Position numbers and translations under genes: made by a program | Origin: a virus | IMG/VR virus record: IMGVR_UViG_3300025087_000048 | Location: 30,224 to 94,223 of that record | Direction: 5' to 3' (one strand) | DNA: 64,000 bases | The notes under the pieces: model-generated | What the model was told of the DNA's origin: nothing | Database searches by the model: none | What the model saw: only the letters and a program-made list of their open reading frames with translations | In this document: positions 9,331 to 58,762 of the stretch, piece after piece | Layout: each line of letters opens with the position of its first letter | How positions within the stretch are numbered: the first letter of the stretch is position 1

Positions 9331-9344
9331 GGATAATCTCCTGT

Positions 9345-9521
9345 TTAATTCAAACACGTACGCTGTGAATCCAGATCTCCCATCTGAAGTAACGCTCCCT
9401 GTAGCAAATACATTTCCCCGTCCGGCACGAACGGACAACACACCACCTCCACGTTCCCCATCTTTCCGACACTCTTATGGTCAAGCTGACAAATCGGACA
9501 CCAGACACAAACCTTATTCAT
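9345..9521 (-). CDS. Small zinc-ribbon protein
   Basis: 58 residues starting MNKVCVWCPICQLDHKS, with a second Cys pair VVCCPF. The CxxCxxC followed by CC pattern suggests a zinc-bound knuckle. ATG at 9521 overlaps the stop of the upstream glycosyltransferase by ATGA. Function is unknown. Confidence 0.6.
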   Translation of the reverse strand: MNKVCVWCPICQLDHKSVGKMGNVEVVCCPFVPDGEMYLLQGALLQMGDLDSQRTCLN

Positions 9522-13494: not shown

Positions 13495-13510
13495 ATTGAC
13501 TCTACCCCCG

Positions 13511-13804
13511 CTATGCCGTTGTACGCTCCCACCGCACTGCAACTTCCTGAAGAACAGTTTGTTTGACAAGGCAATGTCCAAGCAGATCCAACCAGAGACA
13601 CTCAGAATCCCATAAACGGCGAGTCAGAAAATCATAGGCATCATCTCGAATCAGTTGCAGTTCTTGTTGCGTTTGTATGTCCGTAACCTCGTGAACCTCT
13701 AAGTCACTCAACGCCTGCCGAACCACACGAACAGCAATCAATACGGGAAAATCAAATCCTTGAAGATCATCTCCACCCCAGACCGCTCTCATCGAAGTGC
13801 TCAT
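13511..13804 (-). CDS. Phage protein of unknown function
   Basis: 97 residues starting at the ATG at 13804; an in-frame TTG at 13822 is the alternative. The C-terminal half is predicted helical (LIRDDAYDFLTRRLWDSECL, LLGHCLVKQTVLQEVAVRW). It is the first gene after the structural block and may open the sugar operon. I do not recognise a family. Confidence 0.55.
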   Translation of the reverse strand: MSTSMRAVWGGDDLQGFDFPVLIAVRVVRQALSDLEVHEVTDIQTQQELQLIRDDAYDFLTRRLWDSECLWLDLLGHCLVKQTVLQEVAVRWERTTA

Positions 13805-21716: not shown

Positions 21717-22207
21717 TAGACCCCTTTCGCAGCACCAAGCCCAGTCGGGCAATCAGACGTATGTCCAAACGCCGCCAGCTTGTTAAAGTGGCACGGAGCA
21801 CAACAATACTTTGCCTGTGCGAATCGTGATCTAAACATCCCGCCACATGTCCCGCACGGACGTTCCTCATTCGGTTTCTTCCCCGCTTCCCATGCCGCCA
21901 GCAAAAACGGAGAAAAGAGCTCCGACCGATCGGACACAATCATGACATATCCAAGAAACATTTGCCATAATGGCACTTGCATAGCCTCTTTCGCTTCACG
22001 AATCAGCATCTGCGTGTCTTCTGGAAGATACGGAATAAGAATTTCAGCCGCCTTCTCAGGGTCATCCTCCATCACAAAAACAGAACCAGGCTCGTTAGGC
22101 AGAAAATCCATTTCCACATTCGGAGGAACATTCAATTCCAACGTAGGTGGTCCCTGTTCCACAGTTGCACCAGATCCAAATCGACGACCAATCTTCGGCA
22201 CTGCCAT
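21716..22207 (-). CDS. Zinc-finger protein next to the terminase
   Basis: 163 residues, starting MAVPKIGRRFGSG with AAAGGGG upstream of the ATG at 22207. The N-terminal half has many acidic and hydrophobic residues; the C-terminal 50 residues hold CGTCGGMFRSRFAQAKYCC followed by APC, a Cys4-type zinc finger. Many tailed phages encode small zinc-finger proteins here. It overlaps the portal start. A role in packaging is possible but not shown. Confidence 0.65.
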   Translation of the reverse strand: MAVPKIGRRFGSGATVEQGPPTLELNVPPNVEMDFLPNEPGSVFVMEDDPEKAAEILIPYLPEDTQMLIREAKEAMQVPLWQMFLGYVMIVSDRSELFSPFLLAAWEAGKKPNEERPCGTCGGMFRSRFAQAKYCCAPCHFNKLAAFGHTSDCPTGLGAAKGV

Positions 22208-22218
22208 ACATTCCCCTT

Positions 22219-25092
22219 TCATTCCCAAGGTTCATCTTCTCGCCCACCAACCATCCTACGGAATGTTCTATCACATTCCCAAGGTTCAGGCTCCCGCTTC
22301 TCTGCCCCACCAGATACGGTATCGCGTGACACTAACTTCTGAAGCCCATAATATTTCTCAAAACATTCATCATCTGATGTCAAAAGAGCAATCATCCACG
22401 CAATCGCTCGATCATCATGATGTCCAGCAACAGCCCCCCATTCGTTCGGACCCTTCTGCACGAACATTTCCAATTCACGCAGGAGTGATTCACTGGCGAT
22501 GTGGACCCGGCCATTCACCATCTCATGAGATGCAAACCCAACGAGCCACGGCTTCGATTTAGAATTCGTCTCCCAGCCCGTTTTTCGAGAATAGCGAGGC
22601 ACCACCTCATCCCTATACCTCCAGACGTAATTATTTGAATAGCCCATCTTACTTAGTTGTTGATTTGTCCCACCGCCAATCCCATTTGTTTCAACTGCAA
22701 TCTGTGCAGTGTTATAATATTTCCCTAACCAGTACAACACGTTTGCGAGTTCAAACGGATCAACAGCCCGTGATGTCCACTCAGCCACCTGCTTATTCGA
22801 TCCCCGCTGCAACACGCACGCGACCGACGAATCCAAATCCTCTTCCATCGAATCATCTCGACCTTGGCCCATCGCCACATCTATGCCAATGTCATATGCC
22901 TTCCCCTGTTCTGGCTCATCCCAGATCCACAGTTTACCTTGTGGCGCATCAAGAATCCGTGGACCCGAATGCACCTCAGCCATTCGCATCGGGGGACGCA
23001 CTCCATGCCGAAGCTCCCGCAACGATTTCGCAGGAAATACCTGTGCCCCAGGGGTCACCCACGCATCTTCAACCGTATTATGCGTAAGAATTCCATTGGT
23101 ATCATGAAGATGGTCAGGAGCAACACGAAAATCGTACACATCCACACACCCGGCCGATGTAACAGACTTTACTCGATCGCTTAACACATGACGTAAACGA
23201 ACCTTTCCAGAAGGATATGCACGACGCCCATTTTGTTTACGTGCCGAAACAAATCCGATCTTCTCGTGAAATAAAGTTGCTTCAGACGCCGATAAATAAA
23301 GCATCGTTTTATACCCAAGAGACCCATCAATATACGGACGGCTCTGTCTTTCTCGTCGCAACCGCCCCTTAATTCCAAACGCAAGCAATAATAATTGAAT
23401 ATCACGACAGAACTGCTCCCCCTTTGAACAAAAAACAACTTTCGCCTGACGATTTCCAGCGTAACCGTCACTTTCAAACAAAGCGGATAAAAATCTGCGA
23501 ACACAGGGCTGCGGACTCCGAAAGATAGCCTCCGGAACACGAACCACTCGATGCCACAAACCCTTCCCAGAATACTGTTCGGCGATTTCAAATTGAGATA
23601 ACAGGTGTATCCAATCGCGTGTAAACGATCGTACGCCAATAGCCCCCTGCAACCGATGTCGTCGTGTAATTGATGGTCGAGTACCCCGCGACGTTAAATA
23701 ACCAGATGCAACAATACCAACCACACGTTCTATATCTTCAACCACATCCATATCTCGACTATCAGAAGCAATCTCGACACAGTGCCCATCAAAACTTCCA
23801 TCTCCCAGATAATACCCAAGAAATGCAGATAATTCTTCTGTTACCAACACGCTACTCTGTACACCAGGAGAAGAAATCCAACGATGAACAAACATAGATT
23901 CAGACAAGCGAGGGGGTTCTAACGTAAGAACCATATCTTCCAACAGATCTTTTGCTTCAATAAACGCATCACCAACAACAAATGGATGATTGGGAGTACA
24001 TTGAACACGATACCCATCTTTAGTTTCCACAAGAACAGTCTCATGTACCCCTTGTGGCAACCACTCCTTTACTACACGAGACCCAGAAAGTTCTGAAACT
24101 CCTTGTGCTTGATCAATCCGAATCAAGCCAAGATTCGTTCCGACTCGAGTATCTCCGGACACACACAAAGGAAAACTTTGCCGAAACAGATCCCAATCGT
24201 TCCCCATTTCACCGAGCTTTTCCCGCATCCATTTGATATGTCCAGGATTCAACCCGAATTCCGCTACGATATGGCGCTCATTCGCTGAAAACTCGATGGA
24301 CTCACCCACGTTCAATGGCATACAATATTCAGGCTGAAGGAACCATGGGACAAAGGTAAATTCAAACGCGGTATCTCCACGCATGGATGCTTCACAAAAA
24401 TCTCGATACCACGTCCCTGCCATTTCAGCAGAAGACTCCATGATAATAATCGTCCCAGGAACCCGATGGACTGCCGGGATGACCCCGTCAAGCACAAACG
24501 CCGGATCAGGGAACCGGGCACATTCTGACAAATGAGCAACCTGCCAATTCGCACCTATAGCTATGTTTTTCTTGTGGGCAGACTCCACCACAATTCTCGA
24601 TCGTAACCCTGGATCATGTTTACGCGTTGCCTGGGAGGGATTGGCAAACACCAGTTCCCGTTTGGTAATATACCGACCCACTGGGCGAATATCATCATCC
24701 AGATGGTCATAAAATGTCCGTGAAATCTCGAAGAGCGTCCGTGCCCGTTCAGCTTGATCAGCCAGCACCAACGCGTTCACATGAGGCCAAAGCATTGTCC
24801 GCCATGCAACCAACGATTCGGCCAACGTGCTGGCCCCAACCTGGCGAGCTTTCAACCAAACACATCGCGCAAACCCTCGAGCTTCAAATTGGCGCTCAAT
24901 AGATTCAAGAAGTGGGATTTGGCACGGCCAGAAGTTAAACGGGTTATCCCCAATTCTTAACTGCTCCGATGCGAACGCCCGGAAATCCCGACGGTACCGG
25001 ACAATCTTCTGTGCCGATTGCTGTGCTTCGCCAAGCACGACCCCCGTATCAACCGTCCGAGTCAAGGTAACCGGTATCTCCGCTTCCGACAT
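22219..25092 (-). CDS. terL: Terminase large subunit interrupted by an intein
   Basis: 957 residues, about 594 after splicing. The ATPase half has VWLKARQVGAST (Walker A, residues about 81-88) and GTIIIMESSAEMAGTW (Walker B, IIIMES). The nuclease half has YDIGIDVAMG, AVETNGIGGG and GHHDDRAIA, the three acidic motifs of RNaseH-like TerL nucleases. The intein lies between FPL and TVEDAW, just after the ATPase domain. It pumps and cuts DNA at the portal. Start: ATG at 25092 (MSEAEIPVTL), overlapping the zinc-finger gene by 31 bases; a TTG at 25104 is possible. Confidence 0.92.
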   Translation of the reverse strand: MSEAEIPVTLTRTVDTGVVLGEAQQSAQKIVRYRRDFRAFASEQLRIGDNPFNFWPCQIPLLESIERQFEARGFARCVWLKARQVGASTLAESLVAWRTMLWPHVNALVLADQAERARTLFEISRTFYDHLDDDIRPVGRYITKRELVFANPSQATRKHDPGLRSRIVVESAHKKNIAIGANWQVAHLSECARFPDPAFVLDGVIPAVHRVPGTIIIMESSAEMAGTWYRDFCEASMRGDTAFEFTFVPWFLQPEYCMPLNVGESIEFSANERHIVAEFGLNPGHIKWMREKLGEMGNDWDLFRQSFPLCVSGDTRVGTNLGLIRIDQAQGVSELSGSRVVKEWLPQGVHETVLVETKDGYRVQCTPNHPFVVGDAFIEAKDLLEDMVLTLEPPRLSESMFVHRWISSPGVQSSVLVTEELSAFLGYYLGDGSFDGHCVEIASDSRDMDVVEDIERVVGIVASGYLTSRGTRPSITRRHRLQGAIGVRSFTRDWIHLLSQFEIAEQYSGKGLWHRVVRVPEAIFRSPQPCVRRFLSALFESDGYAGNRQAKVVFCSKGEQFCRDIQLLLLAFGIKGRLRRERQSRPYIDGSLGYKTMLYLSASEATLFHEKIGFVSARKQNGRRAYPSGKVRLRHVLSDRVKSVTSAGCVDVYDFRVAPDHLHDTNGILTHNTVEDAWVTPGAQVFPAKSLRELRHGVRPPMRMAEVHSGPRILDAPQGKLWIWDEPEQGKAYDIGIDVAMGQGRDDSMEEDLDSSVACVLQRGSNKQVAEWTSRAVDPFELANVLYWLGKYYNTAQIAVETNGIGGGTNQQLSKMGYSNNYVWRYRDEVVPRYSRKTGWETNSKSKPWLVGFASHEMVNGRVHIASESLLRELEMFVQKGPNEWGAVAGHHDDRAIAWMIALLTSDDECFEKYYGLQKLVSRDTVSGGAEKREPEPWECDRTFRRMVGGREDEPWE
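23077..24165 (-). other. Intein with LAGLIDADG endonuclease inside TerL
   Basis: 363 residues. It begins CVSGDTRVGTNLG (Cys1), has VQCTPNHPFVV (block B) and LAGLIDADG helices LSAFLGYYLGDGSFDG and VRRFLSALFESDGYAG. It ends VYDFRVAPDHLHDTNGILTHN before Thr+1. All splicing residues are present. Inteins at this place in terminases are known from several phages. Confidence 0.92.
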
Positions 25093-25274
25093 TGCCCAGA
25101 ACAAAACCTTGTATATTGCCCTGTCGCATTCGCTGCAATATCATGTCCGCATACCTCACACACACGCCCGGACCCAGCGAATTTATACCCGCGCGGCACG
25201 TCCCTCCCAGGCACACGTTCAACCCGTTCACGTCCCGTCAAACCCAACTGCTGTCGTCTCCGCGCTTCACCCAT
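25062..25274 (-). CDS. Small zinc-finger protein
   Basis: 70 residues, starting MGEARRRQQLGLTGRERV, a start common in small phage proteins. The C-terminal half has VCEVCGHDI and FCSGQCRKRR, a CxxC-CxxxC zinc-binding pair. It is basic and probably binds nucleic acid. It overlaps the terminase start by 31 bases and has GAGGTCGAAC before the ATG. Confidence 0.65.
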   Translation of the reverse strand: MGEARRRQQLGLTGRERVERVPGRDVPRGYKFAGSGRVCEVCGHDIAANATGQYTRFCSGQCRKRRYRLP

Positions 25275-43205: not shown

Positions 43206-43484
43206 ATGGTGTACCCACCTCGTGGGGGAGACTTAACCAGAGAAACCATTCTTGCAATGGCCAATGATGTGATGGCCCGTGGAATGGATGTCTGGTTCAA
43301 GTTTACGTGTCCGTCATGTGGTTTCCGATGCACCGCAGAGACAAAGAATACGTTGCTTGACAACTACGAATGTTTCGAATGTAAAGAAACATGCGCACCG
43401 CAATACTTCGGATTGCTTGTTGCGATGTTTCTTAGGCCATCACCGGGATCTATACCCCAGTCAACGAATGGAGATACCGCATGA
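43206..43484 (+). CDS. Small zinc-ribbon protein upstream of the AAA+ gene
   Basis: 92 residues starting MVYPPRGGDLTRETILAMAN. The central CPSCGFRCTAET and YECFECKETC form a Cys-rich zinc-binding domain. Start 43206 was chosen because the repeat and AAAGGACGGG lie just before it; an upstream ATG at 43167 has no ribosome site. ATGA overlap with the AAA+ gene links it to the ubiquitin-like module. Confidence 0.6.
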   Translation: MVYPPRGGDLTRETILAMANDVMARGMDVWFKFTCPSCGFRCTAETKNTLLDNYECFECKETCAPQYFGLLVAMFLRPSPGSIPQSTNGDTA

Positions 43485-44923
43485 CCTTTCAGGAGAACAT
43501 TCAACTTGCCACGCTTGCTGGCGCTCGAGGAATCTGGATTACAACGTTCGAAGAAGTCCGTGTCCGTGAAGAGCTTCTTACACTGGCTGATCGCCTTGGA
43601 CAACTTACATTCACGTGGTCATCTGGATCTGGACTGCAATCAAGGGACACCGTGATTCTTCCACCAGCCGCAAAGCTGATGGGAGCCTTACAGTACATGC
43701 AGGATTCTAAGCAGGAAGGATGGTTCATTCTTTTTGACGCACATGCAGACCTCGAGGGTGTTCTTCGTCGTGTTCGTGAGCTGGTTCTCTACGGTGTTGC
43801 CAAGTGCCTTATGGTCTCTCCGAAGTCAGAGATCCCTTTTGAACTTTCTCATGAATTCATTCCCATTCCGTATAATCTCCCGACCAAAGTGGAACTTGCT
43901 AATTCTCTAAAGAATACACTAGATGTTCCAGCAGCTGGAATCTTTCAGGTTGCTGAATCGGCTGCCGGATTAACCCTCCATGAAGCACACTATGCAATCC
44001 GACGAGCCGTCATGGCTGGACATAAGAAGATTCCGGCACTTGTCCGCAACGTATGGGAATATAAGACAGATCAGATCTCTCAATCTGGAATGCTCACGAT
44101 CTCACGACCAACCGAAACGTGGAATGACGTGGCTGGCATCTACGGATTCAGATCCTGGATTGATTCACGCTTGCGTGTATTCAGTCCGGAAGCCCGCAAA
44201 AGAGGGGTCCCAATTCCGCGAGGTGTGCTCTTCGTAGGACCATTCGGCACCGGAAAATCTTTAATTTCCAAAGTCATAGCATCGAAACTGGGCTGGCAAT
44301 ACGTTGAGTGGAAATTGGACAAGCTGATGGACCCATTTGTTGGCAATACCGAATCCAATACACGACGCATGATCGAATTGACCGAACTTCATGCCCCCTG
44401 CGTTGTTCGCATTGATGAGATCACCAACCAAGTCTCTGGTCACGAATCATCCGGGTATACGGATTCCGGGGTTGTCAGCCGGATGATCGGAACCATCCTG
44501 ACATGGATGGAGGAACGCACGTCTGACATTTTCCTTGCTGCCTCGACGAACGAACCGTGGAAATTACCTGGACATATGGTCCGCGCTGGGCGATTCGATG
44601 CCATCTTCTACGTCGGTCTCCCCAAAGCTGATGCCTTGGAGGATGTTCTGAAACTCAAGCTCATGAAATATTCTCCTACAATCGACATGACCGCTGTTGA
44701 TATTCCGGAGATGGCTCGCACGATGGCCGCAGAGAAGTTTTCCGCTGCAGAAGCTGAACAAGTTGTCATAGAATCAGTACAAACAGCCTATCCCAACCTT
44801 CCGGACGCCCGACATCTCCAACGGGCATTGCACGCTGTCGTTCCTTCTGCTGTCACGATGGCGGAACAAACCAAGCGCATTGAGGAATGGGCTCGGACTC
44901 GTGCGCAATCCGCCGATCGGTAA
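43481..44923 (+). CDS. AAA+ ATPase (Ycf46-like/proteasome-type)
   Basis: 480 residues. An N-terminal region (IWITTFEEVRVREELLTLAD) resembles that of Ycf46-type ATPases. The AAA+ domain has Walker A GPFGTGKS (253-260), pore-type KLMDPFVGNTESNTRRMIEL, Walker B VVRIDE (308-313), a sensor 1 LAASTNEPW and an Arg finger in VRAGRFD. Such proteins unfold or remodel substrates in an ATP-dependent way. Its place just before a ubiquitin-like modifier gene suggests it acts on tagged proteins or on phage complexes, which is inference. No transmembrane helix or protease domain. Confidence 0.88.
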   Translation: MTFQENIQLATLAGARGIWITTFEEVRVREELLTLADRLGQLTFTWSSGSGLQSRDTVILPPAAKLMGALQYMQDSKQEGWFILFDAHADLEGVLRRVRELVLYGVAKCLMVSPKSEIPFELSHEFIPIPYNLPTKVELANSLKNTLDVPAAGIFQVAESAAGLTLHEAHYAIRRAVMAGHKKIPALVRNVWEYKTDQISQSGMLTISRPTETWNDVAGIYGFRSWIDSRLRVFSPEARKRGVPIPRGVLFVGPFGTGKSLISKVIASKLGWQYVEWKLDKLMDPFVGNTESNTRRMIELTELHAPCVVRIDEITNQVSGHESSGYTDSGVVSRMIGTILTWMEERTSDIFLAASTNEPWKLPGHMVRAGRFDAIFYVGLPKADALEDVLKLKLMKYSPTIDMTAVDIPEMARTMAAEKFSAAEAEQVVIESVQTAYPNLPDARHLQRALHAVVPSAVTMAEQTKRIEEWARTRAQSADR

Positions 44924-44961
44924 TCCGAGTCATCCTTCACATATCTCCACAGGAGGTTCCT

Positions 44962-45357
44962 ATGGCTGATGACCCAGAACCGGAGTTTGCTGACATGTTG
45001 GCTCACCTGCTGAAGCAGCTCGTTGGCACGTCTCGAAACCCGTCTGATCCTAAATCGGACAATCCGAACGATTACGAGCGATCCGTCGAGATCACGGATG
45101 ACGAATCCATTCTGTTGTTTGACAAGGTCCAGTATATTCGTAAAACTGGGGAACGAAAACTCTCTGAACTCAATGCCCTCAAACATGAACATGATGCGGT
45201 CAGGGAGCGGTTCTTTCTTCGTCTTGAAGATGCGTACCCAATCATTTCGGGGTCGGCAGCTCGTGCCGGAGTCGGATGGCGTTCCTGGCGTGGCAAGTTG
45301 TACTACGTTGCGTGGGATCGGAAAGAACAATCCAATTCGGATTCCCAGCCTGTCTGA
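44962..45357 (+). CDS. Protein of unknown function in the ubiquitin-like module
   Basis: 131 residues starting MADDPEPEFADMLAHLLKQL, after AGGAGGTTCC. It has a charged helical middle (KTGERKLSELNALKHEHDAV) and an aromatic end (AGVGWRSWRGKLYYVAWDRK). It lies between the AAA+ ATPase and the modifier gene, so an adaptor role is possible. No motif recognised and no cysteine is seen, which argues against an E2. Confidence 0.6.
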   Translation: MADDPEPEFADMLAHLLKQLVGTSRNPSDPKSDNPNDYERSVEITDDESILLFDKVQYIRKTGERKLSELNALKHEHDAVRERFFLRLEDAYPIISGSAARAGVGWRSWRGKLYYVAWDRKEQSNSDSQPV

Positions 45358-45438
45358 CTTGATCTCCGACGGCCTCCAGGATTGTCCAGGATGGCCGACA
45401 CGGGGACTTCTCACCCACACCAGTACAAGGAGATGGAC

Positions 45439-45720
45439 ATGGCCAACGGAGTCAAGACGAAGGAACATACGACGCCTGTGGACGCAGAGATTCCCACCCC
45501 GGCAATGATCACGATCAGTATCGGGCAACTCGGACGGAAATTGGCCACCATTCAGGTTGCTCCAGGAACCACGCTCAAGGATGCCGTGATCGCCAATGGG
45601 CTTCAGAATACTGAGATCCGTTTGCGTGGGGCAAAAATGCCCAATGACACGGTGCTGGAAGAAGGGGACCTGATCATCTCCGCTCCAGATGCCGTGGTTG
45701 GTGGCAGAACCAATAGGTAA
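45439..45720 (+). CDS. Ubiquitin-like beta-grasp modifier precursor (GG-RTNR)
   Basis: 93 residues. After a 22-residue charged N terminus, residues 23-86 (ITISIGQLGRKLATIQVAPG, TTLKDAVIANGL, IRLRGAKMPNDTVLEEGDLI) follow the beta-grasp order strand-strand-helix-strand-strand of ThiS/MoaD and ubiquitin-like proteins. The tail is AVVGG followed by RTNR, so the diglycine needs trimming before activation. ATG at 45439 has AAGGAG six bases upstream. A JAMM peptidase and an E1-like enzyme are encoded 1.3 kb downstream. Confidence 0.78.
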   Translation: MANGVKTKEHTTPVDAEIPTPAMITISIGQLGRKLATIQVAPGTTLKDAVIANGLQNTEIRLRGAKMPNDTVLEEGDLIISAPDAVVGGRTNR

Positions 45721-45721
45721 G

Positions 45722-46372
45722 CTATATCGAAGAAACTACAGGAGCTCCAGGTGTGCGCGGCACCCATGTTTCAGCGCCTTTGGTTCGATTGCATGGCCAA
45801 CAACAGGGGACCACGTTGTCTTTGGTGTGTGCCCCGCCTACTCCCAGGGGGATGACATGATCCATTGACGGTTTCCGACTCCGGCGTGTTTTCCATGGTT
45901 TTCCACAGTAGGCGCACAACCCAACAAACGATCGGACAATAATTCGCCACTCACGAGGGGTCAAAGGATGAACCGATGTTTCAATCTGAATCTTCCGTTT
46001 TTCGGCGTGTCGCCGCCACTTGTTATGTAAATACACTTGTCCCTTTTCTGTTGCCAGATACCGGCGAAGCGTGATCTGTCGTTTTTCTGTCTTCCGATAG
46101 CGAGCTTTAATTTCACTTCCTTTTTCAGCGTTATGTGCCTTGCTCCACGCTCGATACGCTGGATCTTGCCATCGACGTTTGCCATACGCCCGTTGTGCCT
46201 CACGGTGCGTGCTGTTAAAGGCGGTTCGTTTTGCGTGCTCGCACGTTTTGCAGTCGCCCGGGATACTAGTGTGAATATACGGTTCCCCGCGACGGACACG
46301 CTGACGATGACGCACGCAAAAGGAGGTGATGTCCTTCGTTTCGTGACAGGTCGCACACTGTTTCGTTTCCAT
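45722..46372 (-). CDS. HNH endonuclease inserted antisense in the module
   Basis: 216 residues on the minus strand inside a plus-strand operon. The N terminus has CATCHETKDITSF and CKTCEHAKR (zinc ribbon), and the core is LCAYCGKPWKTRRSRKPSMD followed by HVIPLGVGGAHTKDNVVPCC and WPCNRTKG, a classic HNH. It ends 2 bases from the modifier stop and its start faces the next gene's ribosome site. Probably a selfish homing element that split an operon between the modifier and the peptidase genes. Confidence 0.88.
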   Translation of the reverse strand: METKQCATCHETKDITSFCVRHRQRVRRGEPYIHTSIPGDCKTCEHAKRTAFNSTHREAQRAYGKRRWQDPAYRAWSKAHNAEKGSEIKARYRKTEKRQITLRRYLATEKGQVYLHNKWRRHAEKRKIQIETSVHPLTPREWRIIVRSFVGLCAYCGKPWKTRRSRKPSMDHVIPLGVGGAHTKDNVVPCCWPCNRTKGAETWVPRTPGAPVVSSI

Positions 46373-46421
46373 AGCCACACCGTACCAGATGCAATCACCT
46401 CATGCAAGGAGAGAACATCCC

Positions 46422-46838
46422 ATGACATCAGGACAGCGAAACCCCCGCAGTGATTATTTCCCCGATCTCTCTCAGTTCAAAATGACAGCACGCCACGAAC
46501 AACCATACGTGCGTGAATCTGAAGTGATCAATATGCGACTGATTGACGCCCTGCTTCGAACGCAGGACACTACAAAGGCCGTGACCTTTACATGTTCCCG
46601 AAGCTGGCAAAAACGAGTCTGCGACGCGATTTACTCATTCGTACGAAAGCAAAATCAGAAGCTGACCGTTCATCGAACATGCCGTAAGAACCAAGTGAGC
46701 ATGTGGGTCTCGACCTTTGTGAGTCGAAAGCGGCATGTGCCAGCGATCCAGCTCCCCGAAGCGCGTGCAGCCCGCGCAGCATCAAAGCAAGCGCAGTCTG
46801 CATTGCTGAAGCGGGAACGAAAGCACTCGAACGCATGA
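46422..46838 (+). CDS. Basic protein of unknown function
   Basis: 138 residues starting MTSGQRNPRSDYFPDLSQFK, Lys/Arg-rich, with two predicted domains and a positively charged C-terminal helix (RAARAASKQAQSALLKRERK). AAGGAG upstream and ATGA overlap with the following gene. Nucleic-acid binding or a modification substrate are possible. Confidence 0.55.
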   Translation: MTSGQRNPRSDYFPDLSQFKMTARHEQPYVRESEVINMRLIDALLRTQDTTKAVTFTCSRSWQKRVCDAIYSFVRKQNQKLTVHRTCRKNQVSMWVSTFVSRKRHVPAIQLPEARAARAASKQAQSALLKRERKHSNA

Positions 46839-47047
46839 TTATCAAGCTCAGTGGGAAGTGGACGGGTCCACATGTTCATGAACATGTATTTGTTGGACCC
46901 GATATTGATCATCTTGCGCTTGCCGGTGTGCTCCATCTTGGGGTAGAAGAGTCCTCGAAATTTAGAATAGCTCTCAGACTTGGAGCTATGCAAACGAACG
47001 GACGTGTTTCAATACTTGATGTTCCTATACGTAAGGAGGACGTATGA
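46835..47047 (+). CDS. Small protein coupled to the JAMM peptidase gene
   Basis: 70 residues, MIIKLSGKWTGPHVHEHVFV, with mixed beta strands and three His. The ATG overlaps the previous stop and its own stop overlaps the next ATG, so it is co-translated with the peptidase. Unknown function. Confidence 0.6.
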   Translation: MIIKLSGKWTGPHVHEHVFVGPDIDHLALAGVLHLGVEESSKFRIALRLGAMQTNGRVSILDVPIRKEDV

Positions 47048-47607
47048 ACCACCACATCGGACGAGCATCAGCAACATCTGTAACACTTGCAATTTCTGAT
47101 CAATTATTACGTGAATTGTGGGTGTACTCCCTCGCTACTGATCGCGAAATCTCTGGAATTGGGGAAGTCCATGGACCTGCATCAAATTTGCTGATCACGA
47201 CCCCACTGCATCTCCTCAAGCAGCAAGGAAATTACGTGAAGACAGTCCTCGATATCGACGAGGTCCTGGCACTTCTTGAACAATACATCATGACAGGAAA
47301 GGACCCGGAAACGTTGCGTTTCTGGTATCACAGCCATGCCTACCACCCGGCGTTCTTCTCGGAACAGGATCATGCCACCATCCGAAAATTAAGTGCCATG
47401 ATGCCTGTCTGTGTGGCTGGAGTCGTCAACCACAGAGGGGATTCAGCCTGGGAGGTCATCATCGAAAATGCTGTCACGTACTCGTTCTCTCTAACAATTC
47501 CAGGGGTACGTCCAACTAAAGCCGAAACGGATCTCGTCCATCCGTATCTTGACAAGATATTCACGATCCTCCCACCTCAAACATCTCATGAGGCATTGAC
47601 ATGGTAA
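47044..47607 (+). CDS. JAMM/MPN+ metallopeptidase (deubiquitinase-like)
   Basis: 187 residues. The complete JAMM set is visible: Glu41 in GIGEVHG and H96-S-H98 in FWYHSHAY, then seven residues, S106 and D109 in FFSEQDHA (HxHx7Sx2D). The size fits a single MPN domain. It would bind zinc and cut isopeptide or peptide bonds after the modifier's diglycine, either maturing GG-RTNR or releasing tagged proteins. It overlaps the E1-like gene by 7 bases. The pairing with E1 and a beta-grasp protein is the main support for a ubiquitin-like function. Confidence 0.9.
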   Translation: MNHHIGRASATSVTLAISDQLLRELWVYSLATDREISGIGEVHGPASNLLITTPLHLLKQQGNYVKTVLDIDEVLALLEQYIMTGKDPETLRFWYHSHAYHPAFFSEQDHATIRKLSAMMPVCVAGVVNHRGDSAWEVIIENAVTYSFSLTIPGVRPTKAETDLVHPYLDKIFTILPPQTSHEALTW

Positions 47608-48305
47608 AATGGAACATCCCTGATAACGAACATATGCGGCAGCTCGATTTCTATGATCCGTTCAGCCATGCCCAACGCGTAACCATCATCGGGGCTGGCG
47701 GAATCGGATCATGGGTCACGGTCGCCTTGGCAAAACTTGGCGTCCGCCATCTGCGTGTTATTGATCCTGATTGCGTGGAATCACATAACTTGTCAACAAC
47801 TCCGTATCGACAGATTGACGTTGGTAAGAAGAAGGTTCATGCACTGCAATCACTCTTAGATGAATTCAAGAGAACGATGGTAGCCGTTCCCCATCGGTAT
47901 GCTGGAGGTCAGTTACCGCAGACGGATGTGCTCATCTCAGCCGTTGATTCTATGGCGGCTCGACGTCTGCTCTTCAAGATTGTCCAGAAACAAAAGATTC
48001 CCTTTTACATTGACGGACGAATTGGAGGTGAGAATCTTCGTGTCTATTCAATTCGGCCAACGAATCCTGTTGATAGACACCTCTATCGCTCAACGCTTGT
48101 CCCTGATCACCGAGTAGCCCCGCTGTCATGCACTGGACAGCAAGTCATGGATGTAGGATTGACAATTGCTGGATTAATCGTTCGATCTGTACGGCAGTGG
48201 GCTGTGCTGCGTCGATATAATCCGGAAGTGATCGTAAAATATGATTGTCTCGTTTCATTTGTGGCAGATCCTATTGAGATTCCACACGCGGGAGAACCAC
48301 AATGA
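47601..48305 (+). CDS. E1/ThiF-like ubiquitin-activating enzyme
   Basis: 234 residues. Nucleotide-binding GAGGIGS (31-37), DPDCVESHNLSTTPYRQIDV with acidic, Asn and Arg residues of ThiF/E1, a later LISAVDS and a candidate catalytic Cys177 in PLSCTGQQ. It would adenylate the modifier's C-terminal glycine and pass it to a Cys. The size matches the bare adenylating domain without a ubiquitin-fold domain. It overlaps the JAMM gene and the following gene. No separate E2 or E3 is recognised nearby. Confidence 0.88.
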   Translation: MVKWNIPDNEHMRQLDFYDPFSHAQRVTIIGAGGIGSWVTVALAKLGVRHLRVIDPDCVESHNLSTTPYRQIDVGKKKVHALQSLLDEFKRTMVAVPHRYAGGQLPQTDVLISAVDSMAARRLLFKIVQKQKIPFYIDGRIGGENLRVYSIRPTNPVDRHLYRSTLVPDHRVAPLSCTGQQVMDVGLTIAGLIVRSVRQWAVLRRYNPEVIVKYDCLVSFVADPIEIPHAGEPQ

Positions 48306-48691
48306 TTTTTCCACCTGACAGGAAACTCGACCAGCAACAACTCGAAGATGTCTGTCTGTACTTAATGAGAAACAACCCCTGTCACACTCCTGGAGTTGAA
48401 GTCATAATGCGCAATCTCAGGGTCATAAGCAAACACCCTAGTTCGCCAGTTTTAGACGTAAACCCAATGCTACATCGTTCCTATACAACATATTTCTGGT
48501 GGACCTCCATGGATAAGAACGGAAATAGGTACGCTCACAAGGGTTCAAAAGAAGAAGTATATCAATATTGGATGTCAATTCTCACGAGTCTCAATGAGGC
48601 TCCGGATCTCATTCTGAGCAACCACGTAAAAACACGTAAATCTTGTCTCTACTATTACAGAATCCCAAACTCAACAGAACTGTCAAAATGA
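48302..48691 (+). CDS. Unknown protein, paralogue A next to E1
   Basis: 129 residues starting MIFPPDRKLDQQQLEDVCLY. The C-terminal half (YTTYFWWTSMDKNG, YQYWMSILTSLNEAPDLIL, KSCLYYYRIP) is shared with the next gene. Both have a Cys followed by Leu/Val-Tyr-Tyr. ATGA overlap with E1 gene and with the next. A transfer enzyme or adaptor is possible but unproven. Confidence 0.6.
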   Translation: MIFPPDRKLDQQQLEDVCLYLMRNNPCHTPGVEVIMRNLRVISKHPSSPVLDVNPMLHRSYTTYFWWTSMDKNGNRYAHKGSKEEVYQYWMSILTSLNEAPDLILSNHVKTRKSCLYYYRIPNSTELSK

Positions 48692-49026
48692 TGCATACTC
48701 CGCTCTCACAACGTGATCTCGAATCACTTGCTCGTGGCCTTGCACAGGGCAAGAGTATTCGTCTTCATCAGTTAACCATTGGACACCACTGTGGCAACCC
48801 GTACATTCTTCGAGTTATAACCCAGTCAGGCGCTTCCTACTTCTGGTTTACATCGAGTTTGGTCGGACGGTGGAACCTGCCAAAGGTAAAAATAGAAACC
48901 GTACTGAAATACCACTTGTCTATTCTTGAATTTCTAAACCGAACCCCACAAATCATTGAGGAAACACATAGGAAGTTAGGATGGCGTTGTGTCTACTATT
49001 TTCGGCCTGTCCAATCGACACGATAG
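48688..49026 (+). CDS. Unknown protein, paralogue B next to E1
   Basis: 112 residues starting MMHTPLSQRDLESLARGLAQ. Its C-terminal half (SYFWFTSSLVGRW, YHLSILEFLNRTPQIIEE, WRCVYYFRP) parallels the previous gene, with the same aromatic-TS motif and terminal Cys-Val-Tyr-Tyr. No family recognised. Confidence 0.6.
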   Translation: MMHTPLSQRDLESLARGLAQGKSIRLHQLTIGHHCGNPYILRVITQSGASYFWFTSSLVGRWNLPKVKIETVLKYHLSILEFLNRTPQIIEETHRKLGWRCVYYFRPVQSTR

Positions 49027-49035
49027 GAGATACCC

Positions 49036-49824
49036 ATGCGCGCATCATTCACCGGCACTGTGGTCATCGGCCTCGTCACAATGGCGATCAAAGCATTCAA
49101 AACCACACAGGAACAGAATCTTAATTTCACTCTGCTACATCGTGCATGTCAAGCTCCTTTGAAAATCATGCACGTATGTAAGATGTGTGAACAACCTGTT
49201 CAAAAGAACGATTCAGTCCGCGGAATTGAAACATCAAGTGGATGGGTTACCTTCGACGAGCAGGAGATTGAAGAACTCGAGCCCGTGTCCGCTGAAGGTC
49301 ATCCGATTCGCGGGGAGCAGTGTATCCCGCTTGCTCAAGTGGATTCTCTCTGGTACGATCAGACGTACTTCATGGTTCCAACCGACGTACAAGATATGCG
49401 CCCCTACGCACTGATCAAACGTGTGCTCCGTGATGAACGACTTGCGATCGTCGTCACATACACGACGCGAGGACACATCTACTTGGGACTTATTTGCCCC
49501 AATCAAGACAACCTCATTCTGCGACGTCTCTTCTACGCTGATAACATGCACGCGGTCGAAGATTTTCAGGCTGGAAACGCCCCGATTCACCTTTCTGCAA
49601 AAGAGGTGACTCTTGCCAAACGCCTATTCAAAACGATGACCCGACCGTTCAAACATGAATCCTACCACGACCTTGGGTACCTCCGTCTCATCGAAGTTCT
49701 CCACGCCAAAGAAAAGAAATTGCCAATCCCGCCTCAGAGACGCCCACGTCCAGTTCCAATTCGCACAATGCCCCTTGTTAATGCGCTTCATGATTCTGTC
49801 GAGTACAGGCGCGCTGCAAAATAG
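49036..49824 (+). CDS. Ku-like DNA end-binding protein
   Basis: 262 residues. The opening (MRASFTGTVVIGLVTMAIKA then FKTTQEQNLNFTLLHRACQA) is the standard bacterial Ku start, followed by CKMCEQPVQKNDSVRGIE, EIEELEPVS and DQTYFMVPTD. Ku binds double-strand ends as a ring and recruits a ligase in end joining; phage homologues can protect or circularise genome ends. No LigD-type ligase is visible in the window. It is separated from the modifier genes by 9 bases and could share their transcript. Confidence 0.88.
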   Translation: MRASFTGTVVIGLVTMAIKAFKTTQEQNLNFTLLHRACQAPLKIMHVCKMCEQPVQKNDSVRGIETSSGWVTFDEQEIEELEPVSAEGHPIRGEQCIPLAQVDSLWYDQTYFMVPTDVQDMRPYALIKRVLRDERLAIVVTYTTRGHIYLGLICPNQDNLILRRLFYADNMHAVEDFQAGNAPIHLSAKEVTLAKRLFKTMTRPFKHESYHDLGYLRLIEVLHAKEKKLPIPPQRRPRPVPIRTMPLVNALHDSVEYRRAAK

Positions 49825-50042: not shown

Positions 50043-50478
50043 AACAGAGACACAAATTCTTGAAACAGAAGTACGAAGATTATATCGAGACCAACCAGAT
50101 ATATGCAAAAGGGTTCTCAATCACAAACTAGGAGTTGATCACTACATTCATGGCATGATAGTGCATACTATTCCTGTGTGGATACACACTGCCGATTTTA
50201 TACATCCAAGACGAGTGGCTCTCGGAATGGTTAACGGAATCTGGACTCTATGTGTTGCACCAAAATACACCAACACTGAAGCTCCGGAATTCAAAGACAC
50301 GCCCTGGAATGACGAAGGGTCGCTCATTCATCTATCAAGCGTGGTGAGTAGCGGAGAAAATGGACGATTAAACACAATTTTATTTGCAGTAAACATGTCT
50401 GAAAAGGCGTGGTTAAAATTTAAGAAACAGGAACCAACATGTCTTGCCGTCTTATACCCCCGGAACCTGAACTATTAA
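50023..50478 (+). CDS. Phage protein of unknown function
   Basis: 151 residues starting MSRQILKTETQILETEVRRL; an amphipathic helix, then mixed segments (VDHYIHGMIVHTIPVWIHTA, GSLIHLSSVVSSGENG). AAAAGGACG upstream. It precedes the helicase and overlaps it by 40 bases. No family recognised. Confidence 0.55.
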   Translation: MSRQILKTETQILETEVRRLYRDQPDICKRVLNHKLGVDHYIHGMIVHTIPVWIHTADFIHPRRVALGMVNGIWTLCVAPKYTNTEAPEFKDTPWNDEGSLIHLSSVVSSGENGRLNTILFAVNMSEKAWLKFKKQEPTCLAVLYPRNLNY

Positions 50479-51590
50479 TGGCTCCGATCCCTCCGGCACA
50501 AGAACATCGTGCATTGGTCTGGCTTTGGTCTGCTTCGGCTCTATTTCCAGATATTTTGGAACAATTTCCACAGGACATCCTTTCGGAAGAAGGCCGGCAA
50601 TGGCTTACATGCATGCGTGAATTCCCGACCACCCCATTGGGAAGTTCACCGGCATCAGAACAGGAAGGACGTACATATTTTCGCACACAACTTCTTGCAC
50701 ATTTAGCCAAAGAAGCTGCAAAAGCACAGAAAAATGGGTCGCTTGACAGAGTCTATCGTGCTGTCGAATTTCTTGACACGTTTACTACGGCCATCTCTCC
50801 TCCACCTGTCGTTGCATACGATCTTGCTATTCCACAAGTGCGCTCAGTCATTCCAACAGGAATTGAACCCATAGACCAACAAATTCGTGGCCTTGCTGTT
50901 GGAGAACTTGGCATTATTTTTCTTCCTCCTGGGCGTGGTAAAACACAAATGCTTATTAATTTTACTGACACCGCGCTACTTCTCGGGAAGGATGTTTTAT
51001 ATCTTACAATTGCGGACCAATCAAAGGATGAACTGATTCCTCGGATTGATACATGTATCCTGGGAACCCCATGTCCAGCCGAAGCAACCGCAGACGTGTT
51101 ATTGGAACGACATCAACGGGCAAGCCAGCAACGAACAGGCCGTCTGTGGGTTGCCGACTACACAGATCGGGCCTGTGACATTCAGGATATTGAACGAACT
51201 ATTCAACATTGTGCATCAGACCTCATCATCGTTGACCACGCGGATGATGTGTTGTCTCCGTACGCCACAGATCCGACAGCCACTCGGCACAGTCTCAGAG
51301 TTGTCTACCTCGCACTCAAGAAGCTTTCCGTGCGGTACAATGTTCCCATCTGGACTGCAAGTCAATCACCTGAAGCTTCGTGGAACTTCAGAGACACAAG
51401 TATTTCTGATATGGCTGAGGCCAAGGTGGGGAAAGCCACTGGAGCAGCAATTATTCTAGGATTTTCCGGTGGGCCTATTGCCCAACAGGTTCCAGGGGTC
51501 ATGTACTGTTCCATTGCCAAGGCACGGCGATGGTTCACAGAACGGAATTTCCCGCTTCGATACGATCATGAGGTCTGTCGAATATGGTAA
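50439..51590 (+). CDS. DnaB/RecA-like replicative helicase
   Basis: 383 residues. The C-terminal RecA core has RSVIPTGIEPIDQQIRGLAV, Walker A PPGRGKTQ (163-170), Walker B DLIIVDHADDV and a sensor region WTASQSPEASWNF. The N-terminal 120 residues are helical, as in DnaB-type helicases. It would unwind DNA at the fork as a hexamer, with the primase gene just downstream and overlapping by 7 bases. AGGAACC upstream. Confidence 0.82.
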   Translation: MSCRLIPPEPELLMAPIPPAQEHRALVWLWSASALFPDILEQFPQDILSEEGRQWLTCMREFPTTPLGSSPASEQEGRTYFRTQLLAHLAKEAAKAQKNGSLDRVYRAVEFLDTFTTAISPPPVVAYDLAIPQVRSVIPTGIEPIDQQIRGLAVGELGIIFLPPGRGKTQMLINFTDTALLLGKDVLYLTIADQSKDELIPRIDTCILGTPCPAEATADVLLERHQRASQQRTGRLWVADYTDRACDIQDIERTIQHCASDLIIVDHADDVLSPYATDPTATRHSLRVVYLALKKLSVRYNVPIWTASQSPEASWNFRDTSISDMAEAKVGKATGAAIILGFSGGPIAQQVPGVMYCSIAKARRWFTERNFPLRYDHEVCRIW

Positions 51591-52291
51591 CCCCTTGGCA
51601 TTGGCAACAGTACCAACGACCGTCGCACACAATCAAAGTTCCAAAATCTCCAACGGCACTCCCGCCTGAAGCAGTTCCTGCGTGGGTACACCCACGCGGA
51701 CGTGCCTATCTTAAAGAACGCGGGCTCACCAAGGATGAATCGGAACGCTATGATCTTCACTTCTGCGATGGTGGAGTGTGGTCGCAGCGCCTCATTATTC
51801 CGATGTACGTGAACGACATTCTCGTTGCCTTCCAGGGGCGTGATGTCACAGGAACCGATCCGGGACGATACAGGACAGAGGGACCACGTCCCATTTATTG
51901 CCCAGTCCAACCAGACACGCACGCTCCAGGCCCGCTTGTCATTGTGGAGGGTCCATTCGATGCCTTTGCTGTCCTACGAACCTATACGGCTGTCGCCACC
52001 CTTGGCATCTATCCGAGCTCCGCCCAAATAGAAACGCTGATTCAACTCGTGTCCGCATATCACATACCAGTGACGTATGTGTGGTTTGATAACACAGCGA
52101 CCGGAGAAGCCTGCGCATTACAGCTTCAACTGACTCCGCACATCCCCACATTCGTCATTGTCGATGAACAACAGAAAGATCCAGGAGAATACCTATGTCA
52201 CACTCCGGCCAACGCTCTTGGAGACGTTATTTCCCGTCAGGGTTTTCACCAGCCACCCCAGCCAAACCACCATATAAGACCCACTCGTTGA
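51584..52291 (+). CDS. TOPRIM primase-like protein lacking the zinc domain
   Basis: 235 residues. Residues about 40-110 (GRAYLKERGLTKDESERYDL, RLIIPMYVNDILVAFQGRDV, PRPIYCP) follow the DnaG catalytic core. The TOPRIM Glu lies in LVIVEGPFDAFAVL; the later DxD is changed to FDNTATGEA, so the second acidic residue is missing. There is no N-terminal zinc-binding domain. It could be a degenerate or specialised primase. It overlaps the helicase gene. Confidence 0.78.
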   Translation: MVTPWHWQQYQRPSHTIKVPKSPTALPPEAVPAWVHPRGRAYLKERGLTKDESERYDLHFCDGGVWSQRLIIPMYVNDILVAFQGRDVTGTDPGRYRTEGPRPIYCPVQPDTHAPGPLVIVEGPFDAFAVLRTYTAVATLGIYPSSAQIETLIQLVSAYHIPVTYVWFDNTATGEACALQLQLTPHIPTFVIVDEQQKDPGEYLCHTPANALGDVISRQGFHQPPQPNHHIRPTR

Positions 52292-52617: not shown

Positions 52618-53442
52618 GTGGCAAAAAAACACGTTGATCCCGAAGCTATTGGACCCGGGAAATGTCGGCTGTGCCCTCGATATCAACATGCACAGTCTAT
52701 CTGTCTCCCGGGACGTGGGTCAGTGGCCCCAAACTATATCGTAATCTTGGGATACCCGTCGCACGTTGATGATACGTGGTGTCGTACCTGTGATCGCCCA
52801 GCAACAGACCGCTGCCGTCAAACAGACCATCACATTGGGCACATACTCAGTAACGCAGCAGGACATGCATTACGAAACGTTTTACTGAAGGCATCCATTG
52901 ACCCGAACACGGTATTTTACACCAGTGTCGTTCGTTGTGCCGGGAAGCCGCCTGGAATCGTACAGATTCGCCGATGCCGGGCATATCTTTTGGACGAACT
53001 CGCGGCACTTGATCTGTCCCGATGCCGTGGCATCATGCTCCTTGGAGACTCTGCGGTCCACGGAGTGTTGAACCACCCGTATCTCACAGTCAAGCACACA
53101 CGTCTTCGTGTGTTGAACCCCACGGCCCCCCCTTGGGGCCCACCTGTTCGTGCCACCTATTACCCTGTAGAGCTTCTCCTACGCCAATCTGGAGCCATCA
53201 CACAGACAGAGATGGTTGCTGACTTCCTGGACCTTCAGAAACCACGAGATCCAGTCATGCCAACCGCACCCTGGAATTCATCCATGTATGATTTACCGGC
53301 ACCTCAATTGCTTGGAATCGACCTTGAGTGGACACAACACGGAACGATTCGGTGCATCGGATTTTCAGACGGAGTCTGGAAGATGGTAGCTCAGAGTCAG
53401 GATATCCCAAGTTTTCTCCAATGGCTCGAAGAAGCTAAATAG
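52618..53442 (+). CDS. Uracil-DNA glycosylase-like protein fused to exonuclease motif I
   Basis: 274 residues from a GTG. Residues 14-110 match family 4-like UDGs: GKCRLCPRYQ (iron-sulfur Cys pair), ICLPGRGSVAPNYIVILGYP, and FYTSVVRCAGKPP. Residues 230-252 read LLGIDLEWTQHGTIRCIGFS, which is the first acidic motif of a DEDD 3'-5' exonuclease, but the protein stops at EEAK before motif II. Motif II is present at the start of the polymerase gene 3.7 kb away. Removal of uracil during replication is expected. Confidence 0.8.
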   Translation: MAKKHVDPEAIGPGKCRLCPRYQHAQSICLPGRGSVAPNYIVILGYPSHVDDTWCRTCDRPATDRCRQTDHHIGHILSNAAGHALRNVLLKASIDPNTVFYTSVVRCAGKPPGIVQIRRCRAYLLDELAALDLSRCRGIMLLGDSAVHGVLNHPYLTVKHTRLRVLNPTAPPWGPPVRATYYPVELLLRQSGAITQTEMVADFLDLQKPRDPVMPTAPWNSSMYDLPAPQLLGIDLEWTQHGTIRCIGFSDGVWKMVAQSQDIPSFLQWLEEAK

Positions 53443-57154: not shown

Positions 57155-58762
57155 ATAGTCACACTGGTCGGGCATAATCTCATCTCAGACTTGAGCATGC
57201 TCATTCGAGCCGGGCACCCACTCCCCACGAATGTCAATTACTTTGATACCTACGTGGCAGCCCGTTGGGTGTGGCCCGACATGGATGACTATGGACTTGA
57301 GGCGCTCGCACTCCGCTCAACCAACATCGGACAGTGGCGAACCACCTTAGGAAAACTCGAGGCTGAAGACTTTGATGCCATGCCCGATGAACAGCTCTAT
57401 GAACGCTGCGGAGGGGATGCCCAAGCCCCCATCCTCCTCCAGCGCCTCCTTGCCCCCCAGATCGACGATCTCCACATGGGGGCCATCTGGACCCTCGCCA
57501 TGGATGTATTGCCCATCCTGGCCGAAATGGGGGGCCGTGGGATGGCGCTAGATCACCCACTGCTCGCCTCCTGGGCATCTGAAACGGAAAAATGGCTCCA
57601 ACAAGCAGAAGAATCATTGAAACAACGACTCAACGTGGACAATATTAACAGCGACATTCAAGTGGCAAAGACGCTGTATAGCCCACCATGGAAGGCAGAA
57701 CCCTTATACAAGAATCTCACAGGCTACAGCGTTGATAAACTCTCGCTCCTGTGGGCACGACACCAAGCCACTGGCACGAATCAAATGGAACTCATTCGCC
57801 TGTTGACGGATCTCCTTGAGTATCGAACAAAAGAGAAACTTCAATCGACATACTACATTCCATGGTTAAATAACAGCGATCATACACGTGTGTATTCAGA
57901 ATATTCATTGGGTGTGACTGCAACAGGACGGCTCTCCTCGAAACGGTTTAACCTTCAAAATGTGCCCGAGTCCGTACGAACGGCCATCATTCCATCCCCG
58001 GGGTACGACGATATTATTGCAGCAGATTATAATATGTTGGAATTGTGCGTGGCAGCAAATCGCTCGGAAGATCCACTCATGCTGAAATGGATTCGTGAGG
58101 GGCTCGATATTCATTCAATCATGGCAGCACGTGTGCTCGGATTGAAAGAACCTGCTACCAAAGAAGAAGGGAAAACATTCAAAGCACGCTATCCAATCGA
58201 ACGAGCAACCGGAAAATTAACAAATTTTGCAGTGATCTTCGGTATTAAAGCCAATTCATTAACATGGAAAATCTTCCAAGACACCGATGGCACAACTTGG
58301 ATTCCAGAAGCAGATATGCAGCAGTATATTGACACTTTTTTCTCTACTTTCTCCGGGTACCAAGCATATAGCGAATATGGACAACGTGAACTTGCTAATG
58401 GACACCCGGTTGTCAGCCCATTCAATCGACAGTGGTCATTCCCAGCCACGGAAGCCGGACATCGAAAGTGGCTCAACTACCCGACCCAGGCGACTGCATC
58501 GGATATTACACTCATTGCACTTAAAACAATTGACCATGAACTAAAAACACGCAAACTGAAAAGCCGTCTCATCGGGGAGGTGCACGATGCCATAGTCATT
58601 GAAAACCCACGGAAAGAACGACCTGAAGTCCTCCGCCTCGTCAAATCCATCTGTGAGAATCCTGATACTCGTGCGTTTGGATTCACCCTGAAAGTCCCCC
58701 TTCGCGTTGAATTGAAAGTGGGACCCAACTGGGGAACACTCAAGGAGGTAATAATTCAATGA
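57155..58762 (+). CDS. Family A DNA polymerase, starting within the exonuclease domain at a non-standard codon
   Basis: About 535 residues. The reading frame begins IVTLVGHNLISDLSMLIRAG, which is exonuclease motif II, followed by YFDTYVAAR and DDYGLEALALR (motif III region). The polymerase has motif A IIAADYNMLELCVAANRSED, motif B RATGKLTNFAVIFGI and motif C GEVHDAIVIEN. AAGGAG at 57143-57148 is six bases from ATA at 57155, the best-placed start; the first ATG (57191) and a TTG at 57185 would lose motif II. Motif I is at the end of the UDG-like gene. It is the main replicative polymerase. Confidence 0.85.
   Translation: MVTLVGHNLISDLSMLIRAGHPLPTNVNYFDTYVAARWVWPDMDDYGLEALALRSTNIGQWRTTLGKLEAEDFDAMPDEQLYERCGGDAQAPILLQRLLAPQIDDLHMGAIWTLAMDVLPILAEMGGRGMALDHPLLASWASETEKWLQQAEESLKQRLNVDNINSDIQVAKTLYSPPWKAEPLYKNLTGYSVDKLSLLWARHQATGTNQMELIRLLTDLLEYRTKEKLQSTYYIPWLNNSDHTRVYSEYSLGVTATGRLSSKRFNLQNVPESVRTAIIPSPGYDDIIAADYNMLELCVAANRSEDPLMLKWIREGLDIHSIMAARVLGLKEPATKEEGKTFKARYPIERATGKLTNFAVIFGIKANSLTWKIFQDTDGTTWIPEADMQQYIDTFFSTFSGYQAYSEYGQRELANGHPVVSPFNRQWSFPATEAGHRKWLNYPTQATASDITLIALKTIDHELKTRKLKSRLIGEVHDAIVIENPRKERPEVLRLVKSICENPDTRAFGFTLKVPLRVELKVGPNWGTLKEVIIQ

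Follow-up and report, generated by a model that had tools for sequence, protein, structure and literature searches.

IMG/VR virus record IMGVR_UViG_3300025087_000048 is 94,223 bases long, and the 64,000-base stretch analysed here (the window) corresponds to bases 30224–94223 of this record. Its source is a tailed phage, for which genes for the terminase large subunit (22219–25104) and the portal protein (20043–21752) were recognized. Amid DNA-metabolism genes, the plus strand of the window encodes a Cdc48/Ycf46-type AAA+ ATPase of 480 amino acids (43481–44923), a ubiquitin-like modifier (Ubl) of 93 amino acids (45439–45720), a JAMM/JAB metallopeptidase of 187 amino acids (47044–47607), and an E1/ThiF-type activating enzyme of 234 amino acids with a single adenylation domain (47601–48305). 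A first-pass annotation of this DNA had read the four genes as a phage ubiquitin-like module, and all four were recovered where it had placed them, using Pfam, phrog, and leave-one-out profiles. Judging from the parts, the intact catalytic residues, and the gene order, the Ubl, JAMM, and E1 genes belong with a family of phage Ubl–E2–JAMM–E1 operons, of which the window carries a derived variant that has apparently lost its E2 gene and is thus not a full member.

The leave-one-out profiles were built from other phages only and were searched against the 1,938 six-frame open reading frames (ORFs) of the 94-kb record. The Ubl, JAMM, and E1 genes were the only clearly significant ORFs and ranked at the top by wide margins, and chance was therefore excluded. 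The Ubl was the single significant ORF for its profile (E = 1.1e-6, or 0.0016 with a smaller seed set). By itself, it was recognized by neither Pfam nor NCBIfam; its one match as a single sequence, to Ub-Mut7C, was weak (0.048). Archaeal SAMP2 (1.8e-11) and polyubiquitin are both matched by the profile of the modifier family. In the AlphaFold model (core pLDDT, the predicted local confidence, near 80; predicted template modelling score, 0.48), strands 24–30 and 36–40, helix 46–52, and strands 59–62 and 78–82 follow the beta-grasp order, and the fold matches in the PDB were MoaD, ubiquitin, Caldiarchaeum ubiquitin, FAT10, and SUMO (best E, 5e-4), the best being mycobacterial MoaD. The Ubl is thus a predicted beta-grasp protein, with its domain at approximately residues 22–87, followed by a Gly pair at residues 88–89 (45700–45705) and the four residues RTNR. 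It is therefore a small modifier of the expected type, with a C-terminal Gly motif and encoded near the enzymes. The first-pass annotation had described a beta-grasp protein with a GG tail and had allowed that another fold would tell against it; the fold is borne out by the profile, the model, and the PDB fold search, but the Gly pair is not at the very end.

The JAMM gene adjoins the E1 gene, and its product matches Prok-JAB (1.8e-5) and its leave-one-out profile (5.7e-20). The predicted metal-binding motif comprises E35 and HxHx7SxxD (the latter at approximately 47329–47370), and 13 homologues all retain E35, H96, H98, S106, and D109, so that the full set of ligands ascribed to this protein is indeed present. 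Among solved structures, the JAMM family profile is closest to Rpn11/PSMD14 (2e-12), followed by CSN5 and the SAMP2-specific archaeal JAMM1 (1e-4). The identification of the last gene as an E1/ThiF-like enzyme was likewise upheld (ThiF, 6.2e-23; leave-one-out profile, 4.5e-54). Residues R13, D55, D57, N63, K78, D116, R121, and C177, which include the adenylation site, are invariant in 15 homologues; C177 (encoded at 48129–48131) is the candidate catalytic residue, lying at the presumed site of the catalytic cysteine of E1 enzymes. The window E1, at most 38% identical to its relatives, falls among the phage-type E1s, which are separated from ThiF/MoeB-like E1s in a 77-row tree (support 95/87), and it scored far below the cut-offs of the NCBIfam ThiF, MoeB, and UbaA models.

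Relatives were gathered from IMG/VR by two scans using E1 alignments, which yielded 148 loci with a recognizable E1; gene orders were counted in the 121 loci with at least 4.5 kb upstream of the E1 gene. Alignments were needed for this purpose, as neither scans of viral contigs with the single E1 and JAMM proteins nor tblastn searches of GenBank phages for JAMM and Ubl brought up any relatives. The commonest orders were E2–JAMM–E1 (60 loci), Ubl–E2–JAMM–E1 (33), and Ubl–E2–JAMM–E1–AAA (10), and in nine loci not used as seeds a modifier is encoded just upstream of the E2 gene. In 17 divergent E2 sequences, H146, P147, C155, and G157 are invariant (an HP…C…G core), and the family E2 profile matches human UbcH7 at 5e-4. 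Its match to Pfam UQ_con is weak and lies over the active site (0.027), and a fold model of one E2 (L008) retrieved mostly UBC/RWD folds with weak scores (best E, 0.2); the identification of the relatives' gene as an E2 is therefore based on the invariant core and the UbcH7 match rather than on the fold model. As for the synteny of the E1 and JAMM relatives, which the first-pass annotation had proposed as a check, they reside in Ubl–E2–JAMM–E1 operons and not in molybdopterin, thiamine, or cysteine clusters.

A second E2 class, with an HSH…C motif, characterizes the crAss-like and Flavobacterium type and includes two isolates, Bacteroides phage PhiCrAssBcn1 (L004) and Flavobacterium phage Fpv1 (L002). 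In these two phages and in PhiXhv-12 (L003), the E1, annotated as a thiamine biosynthesis protein, adjoins an E2-like gene, and in the GenBank records of PhiCrAssBcn1 and Fpv1 a JAMM gene is also located beside E1/E2. The label 'thiamine biosynthesis' on these phage E1s is probably misleading. In Fpv1, the JAMM is encoded in two frames around a separate antisense LAGLIDADG-like ORF (L002, 3671–5963) and may be interrupted by an intron or an inserted endonuclease gene. Ten contigs from cellular genome assemblies (Myxococcales, Chloroflexi, candidate-phylum bacteria, and a proteobacterium) also match, most of them with JAMM and E2 genes; sets of the Ubl–E2–JAMM–E1 type were observed in L238–L247, which are contigs of Myxococcales, Chloroflexi, and candidate-phylum bacteria. 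A literature search of partial coverage, with subscription papers mostly outside it, found no paper on the phage Ubl–E2–JAMM–E1 module; the system is widespread and, it seems, undescribed.

In the window, the slot between the Ubl and JAMM genes is occupied by an antisense HNH endonuclease gene (45722–46378, minus strand; Pfam HNH, 3.9e-10; phrog_1035, 2.3e-24) and two small ORFs. Searches with two E2 profiles and the motif identified no E2 in the window, in the slot itself, or in the left 30 kb, and none was identified in the whole record, which may be a fragment, by a genome search that recovered three positive controls. The earlier remark that no E2 is evident thus extends to the record. An E2 with HP/HS…C is therefore not present beside the JAMM gene. 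The small ORFs nearby were weighed as E2 candidates and rejected, having neither the motif nor a profile match. The profile detects no E2 in eight of the 121 loci (L028, L220, L222, L234, L015, L202, L225, and L228), but divergent HP…C motifs were seen on inspection in the first four. No E2 was found in the whole contigs of L015 and L202, and both of these phages keep intact JAMM and E1 and a GG-tailed Ubl. In the E1 tree, L015 and L202 are placed among E2-carrying loci, and the window E1 forms a pair with that of L028 (98/92), a long-branched locus with an E2 motif; the loss of E2 in the window therefore looks derived, and at least three losses appear to have occurred in the family. The proposal of a ubiquitin-like module stands, and the absence of E2, which it had noted, is recast as a departure from a family norm in which E2 lies beside JAMM.

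Two further observations concern these loci. L202 has a compact arrangement, in which the Ubl gene overlaps the JAMM gene and the E1 gene follows; this E1 (8918–10921) has a long N-terminal extension. In addition, two HNH genes with similar zinc-binding N-termini are present in the phage studied here, i.e. the gene at 45722–46378 and a second one outside the window (L089, 6942–7541), which suggests a mobile endonuclease family spreading within the genome.

The AAA+ ATPase is encoded approximately 0.5 kb from the Ubl gene on the same strand. It matches Pfam AAA (1.1e-23) and, over its full length including the N-terminal domain (residues 3–479), phrog_8638 (9.4e-77); the name Ycf46 for this type is presumably the appropriate one. 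Its Walker A motif (GPFGTGKS) is encoded at approximately 44237–44260, the Walker A and B residues are kept in the family alignment, and VCP/Cdc48 is the solved structure in the PDB to which the family profile comes closest. Of the 121 loci, 12 (~10%) have a similar AAA+ gene no more than 10 kb away from the module, as do four more loci with shorter flanks; in L209, it is upstream of the Ubl gene, as in the window. Most module-linked AAA+ loci have a DUF2997 gene beside the AAA+ gene, and no DUF2997-like ORF was found in the record of the window. Because 76 of the 80 best AAA+ loci are without a Ubl module within 10 kb, the AAA+ is a recurrent but optional partner of the module. Accordingly, of the parts that had been said to define bacterial ubiquitin-like conjugation systems, those of the Ubl module hold and the AAA+ does not.

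The same counts could mean that the AAA+ gene is an early phage gene in its own right, adjacent by position only, and that the Ubl module works without it. A full-length match of the same type in Rhizobium phage RHph_I4 is accompanied by DUF1257 and DUF2997, with no Ubl genes annotated nearby, which is consistent with such independence. The closeness and shared strand of the two genes in the window speak against it, as does the recurrence of module-linked AAA+ genes in three E1 lineages besides that of the window, which, by a rough inference, would be unlikely for two rare genes. We regard an independent AAA+ as somewhat unlikely.

On balance, and with moderate confidence, we interpret the window system as a phage ubiquitin-like protein-modification module that derives from the Ubl–E2–JAMM–E1 family by E2 loss and performs E2-independent, reversible tagging with AAA+ remodelling early in infection. 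The proposed steps are as follows. The JAMM would cut RTNR off the Ubl precursor to expose Gly-Gly, and the E1 would adenylate the terminal Gly and load the Ubl on C177 as a thioester. The loaded E1 would then, without an E2, hand the Ubl directly to target lysines, as archaeal UbaA does with SAMPs. The adjacent Cdc48-like AAA+ ring would extract or unfold the tagged proteins, and the Rpn11-like JAMM would take off and recycle the tag. Because the module genes run straight into those for Ku, a DnaB-type helicase, and a primase, action would be early in infection, most likely on assemblies for replication or repair or on host proteins encountering the phage DNA.

Several points weigh against this interpretation. 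That the module tags any protein is something we infer; there is no E2, though nearly all relatives keep one; the Ubl tail would need to be trimmed first, which is a predicted step; and the antisense HNH gene between the Ubl and JAMM genes means that co-transcription of the two halves is not assured. The AAA+ counts given above weigh in the same direction, and the suggested targets are a guess from gene position. More tentatively still, the locus may represent a minimal phage ubiquitin–Cdc48 axis, consisting of a JAMM-processed Ubl, an E2-free E1, an Rpn11-like deconjugase, and a dedicated unfoldase for early replication or host remodelling, which would have arisen by shedding E2 from a widespread phage system.

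The trio might instead supply a sulfur carrier: the JAMM would trim the Ubl to GG, the E1 would adenylate it, and a host sulfurtransferase would form a thiocarboxylate for tRNA, cofactor, or metabolite thiolation (cf. MoaD, ThiS, TtuB, CysO, and QbsE). An E2-less trio fits that chemistry, as do a small, ThiF-type E1 and a modifier whose top fold match is MoaD. However, the relatives carry E2, the E1 belongs to a clade apart from ThiF/MoeB-like enzymes, and no thiolation or cofactor enzyme was recognized among the genes examined around the module. By these comparisons the kinship of the window E1 does not appear to lie with sulfur metabolism; a thiocarboxylate role might still be played, but we consider this explanation improbable. 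Equally doubtful is that the HNH element, which sits exactly in the E2 slot of a record devoid of E2, displaced the E2 and left a decaying system that is non-functional, borrows a host E2, or retains a JAMM that could alone deconjugate and so strip host antiphage tags, since all catalytic features tested are intact in the Ubl, JAMM, and E1 despite long divergence, which argues for selection, and L015 and L202 keep theirs as well.

Protein modification without E2 has a close parallel in the archaeal SAMP (small archaeal modifier protein) system (SAMP1/2, UbaA, JAMM1, and Cdc48a), which also has a GG beta-grasp modifier, a single-domain E1, a JAMM, no need for E2, and a Cdc48-type ATPase. Archaeal SAMPs are conjugated by UbaA without an E2 (PMC11354881), and archaeal Cdc48 works with SAMP-type tags in DNA-damage recovery (PMC10470531). 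In contrast, the window system is phage-borne, its E2 loss is secondary, its AAA+ is of the single-ring Ycf46/phrog_8638 type, and its E1 scores 39.3 versus 450 bits on the UbaA model. In the BilABCD and Bub systems, a single operon holds the Ubl, E2, JAMM, and E1 genes in the order seen in the phage relatives. Two Ubl domains are present in BilA, BilD combines inactive and active adenylation domains with a Cys domain, and BilB has a CEHH site (PMC11354881), whereas the window has one Ubl domain, a one-ThiF-domain E1, and no E2, and the E2 of the phage relatives has HP…C. Assignment to Bil/Bub was rejected on this architecture, as no BilB-type E2, two-domain Ubl, or E1 with two adenylation domains is present.

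Bacterial operons with ubiquitin, JAB, E1, and E2 genes, and a lambda tail Ubl–JAB pair, were described by Iyer et al. in 2006 (PMC1779556). Those of type 6d, or PRTRC, have the same classes of parts, and the window E1 matches PRTRC_ThiF weakly (3.5e-11). Membership was rejected on NCBIfam scores (ThiF, 42.9 versus 144.75 bits; A, 17.2 versus 101.8; no B or C match), and the type 6d E2 lacks the classical upstream His that the phage-family E2 has (PMC1779556). The lambda/T1 tail-assembly proteins TAPI/TAPK also combine a phage Ubl with a JAB, but in a tail-gene context without E1 or E2 (PMC1779556), whereas the window has an E1 and an early-gene context. Two other assignments were rejected: that to ThiF/MoeB sulfur-carrier E1s, on the equivalog scores and the tree position given above, and that to Cap2/Cap3 of type II CBASS (cyclic oligonucleotide-based antiphage signalling system), as the window E1 is a separate protein whose matches to E1–E2 models are confined to the E1 part; no CD-NTase neighbour was found among the genes searched in family libraries. 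None of the Iyer operons, the lambda pair, Bil, or Bub covers the phage Ubl–E2–JAMM–E1 operon with a classical HP…C E2, and the E2-less form beside a Cdc48-like ATPase likewise lies outside these descriptions.

Within the locus, the first-pass annotation had recognized the HNH gene correctly but had taken it as the only interruption. An ORF of 131 amino acids without assigned function (44962–45357, plus strand) opens behind an AGGAGG between the AAA+ and Ubl genes; it gave no family match in library searches and has no relative in the fetched loci. The two small ORFs of the E2 slot, known only as open frames on the plus strand, are located at 46389–46838, with no family match in library searches, and at 46838–47047, encoding 70 amino acids from an ATG at 46838, overlapping the JAMM start, and with no relative found. 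Scans for promoters and terminators gave nothing clearly beyond chance. Right after the E1 gene, two adjacent small ORFs (48302–48691 and 48691–49026) resemble distant paralogues and belong to no known family. The Ku gene (49036–49824; Ku_bact, 1.6e-44) lies directly downstream of the module, followed by the DnaB-type helicase (50439–51590) and primase (51584–52291) genes, and a DNA polymerase gene is located at 57191–58762. Phage DNA-metabolism genes are usually expressed early. Corndog-type mycobacteriophages (L005) have both a Ku-like gene and a relative of the window AAA+, and in L022 and L030 (approximately 10–16.5 kb) the module is followed by ParB-like, AAA+, RecA-like, and DUF2997 genes, a larger block conserved in several large phages. 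A uracil-DNA glycosylase superfamily gene is present at 52618–53442, and genes of this superfamily are also found next to the Ubl module in Flavobacterium and crAss-like phages; when this link was tested, the glycosylase motif proved frequent in HSH-type (crAss-like) loci alone, with 22 of 62, as against none of 64 HPH-type loci. Glycosyltransferase genes (2078–3169 and 10621–13581, both minus strand), together with ORFs resembling a radical-SAM enzyme and a sugar-nucleotide epimerase in another part of the same phage (L089, 8544–9953 and 15086–15988), suggest glycan-related phage functions.

Bacterial ubiquitin-like conjugation is known mainly as antiphage defence (Bil, Bub, and type II CBASS). 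Here, complete Ubl–E2–JAMM–E1 sets, with eukaryote-like E2 and JAMM, are found inside phage genomes, including those of cultured crAss-like and Flavobacterium phages, and with these cultured carriers, protein tagging by phages can be tested directly in isolates. The variant in the window, which lacks E2 and adjoins a Cdc48-like ATPase, raises the question of whether an E1 alone may conjugate outside archaea, and the window offers a minimal tag–unfoldase pair for reconstitution.

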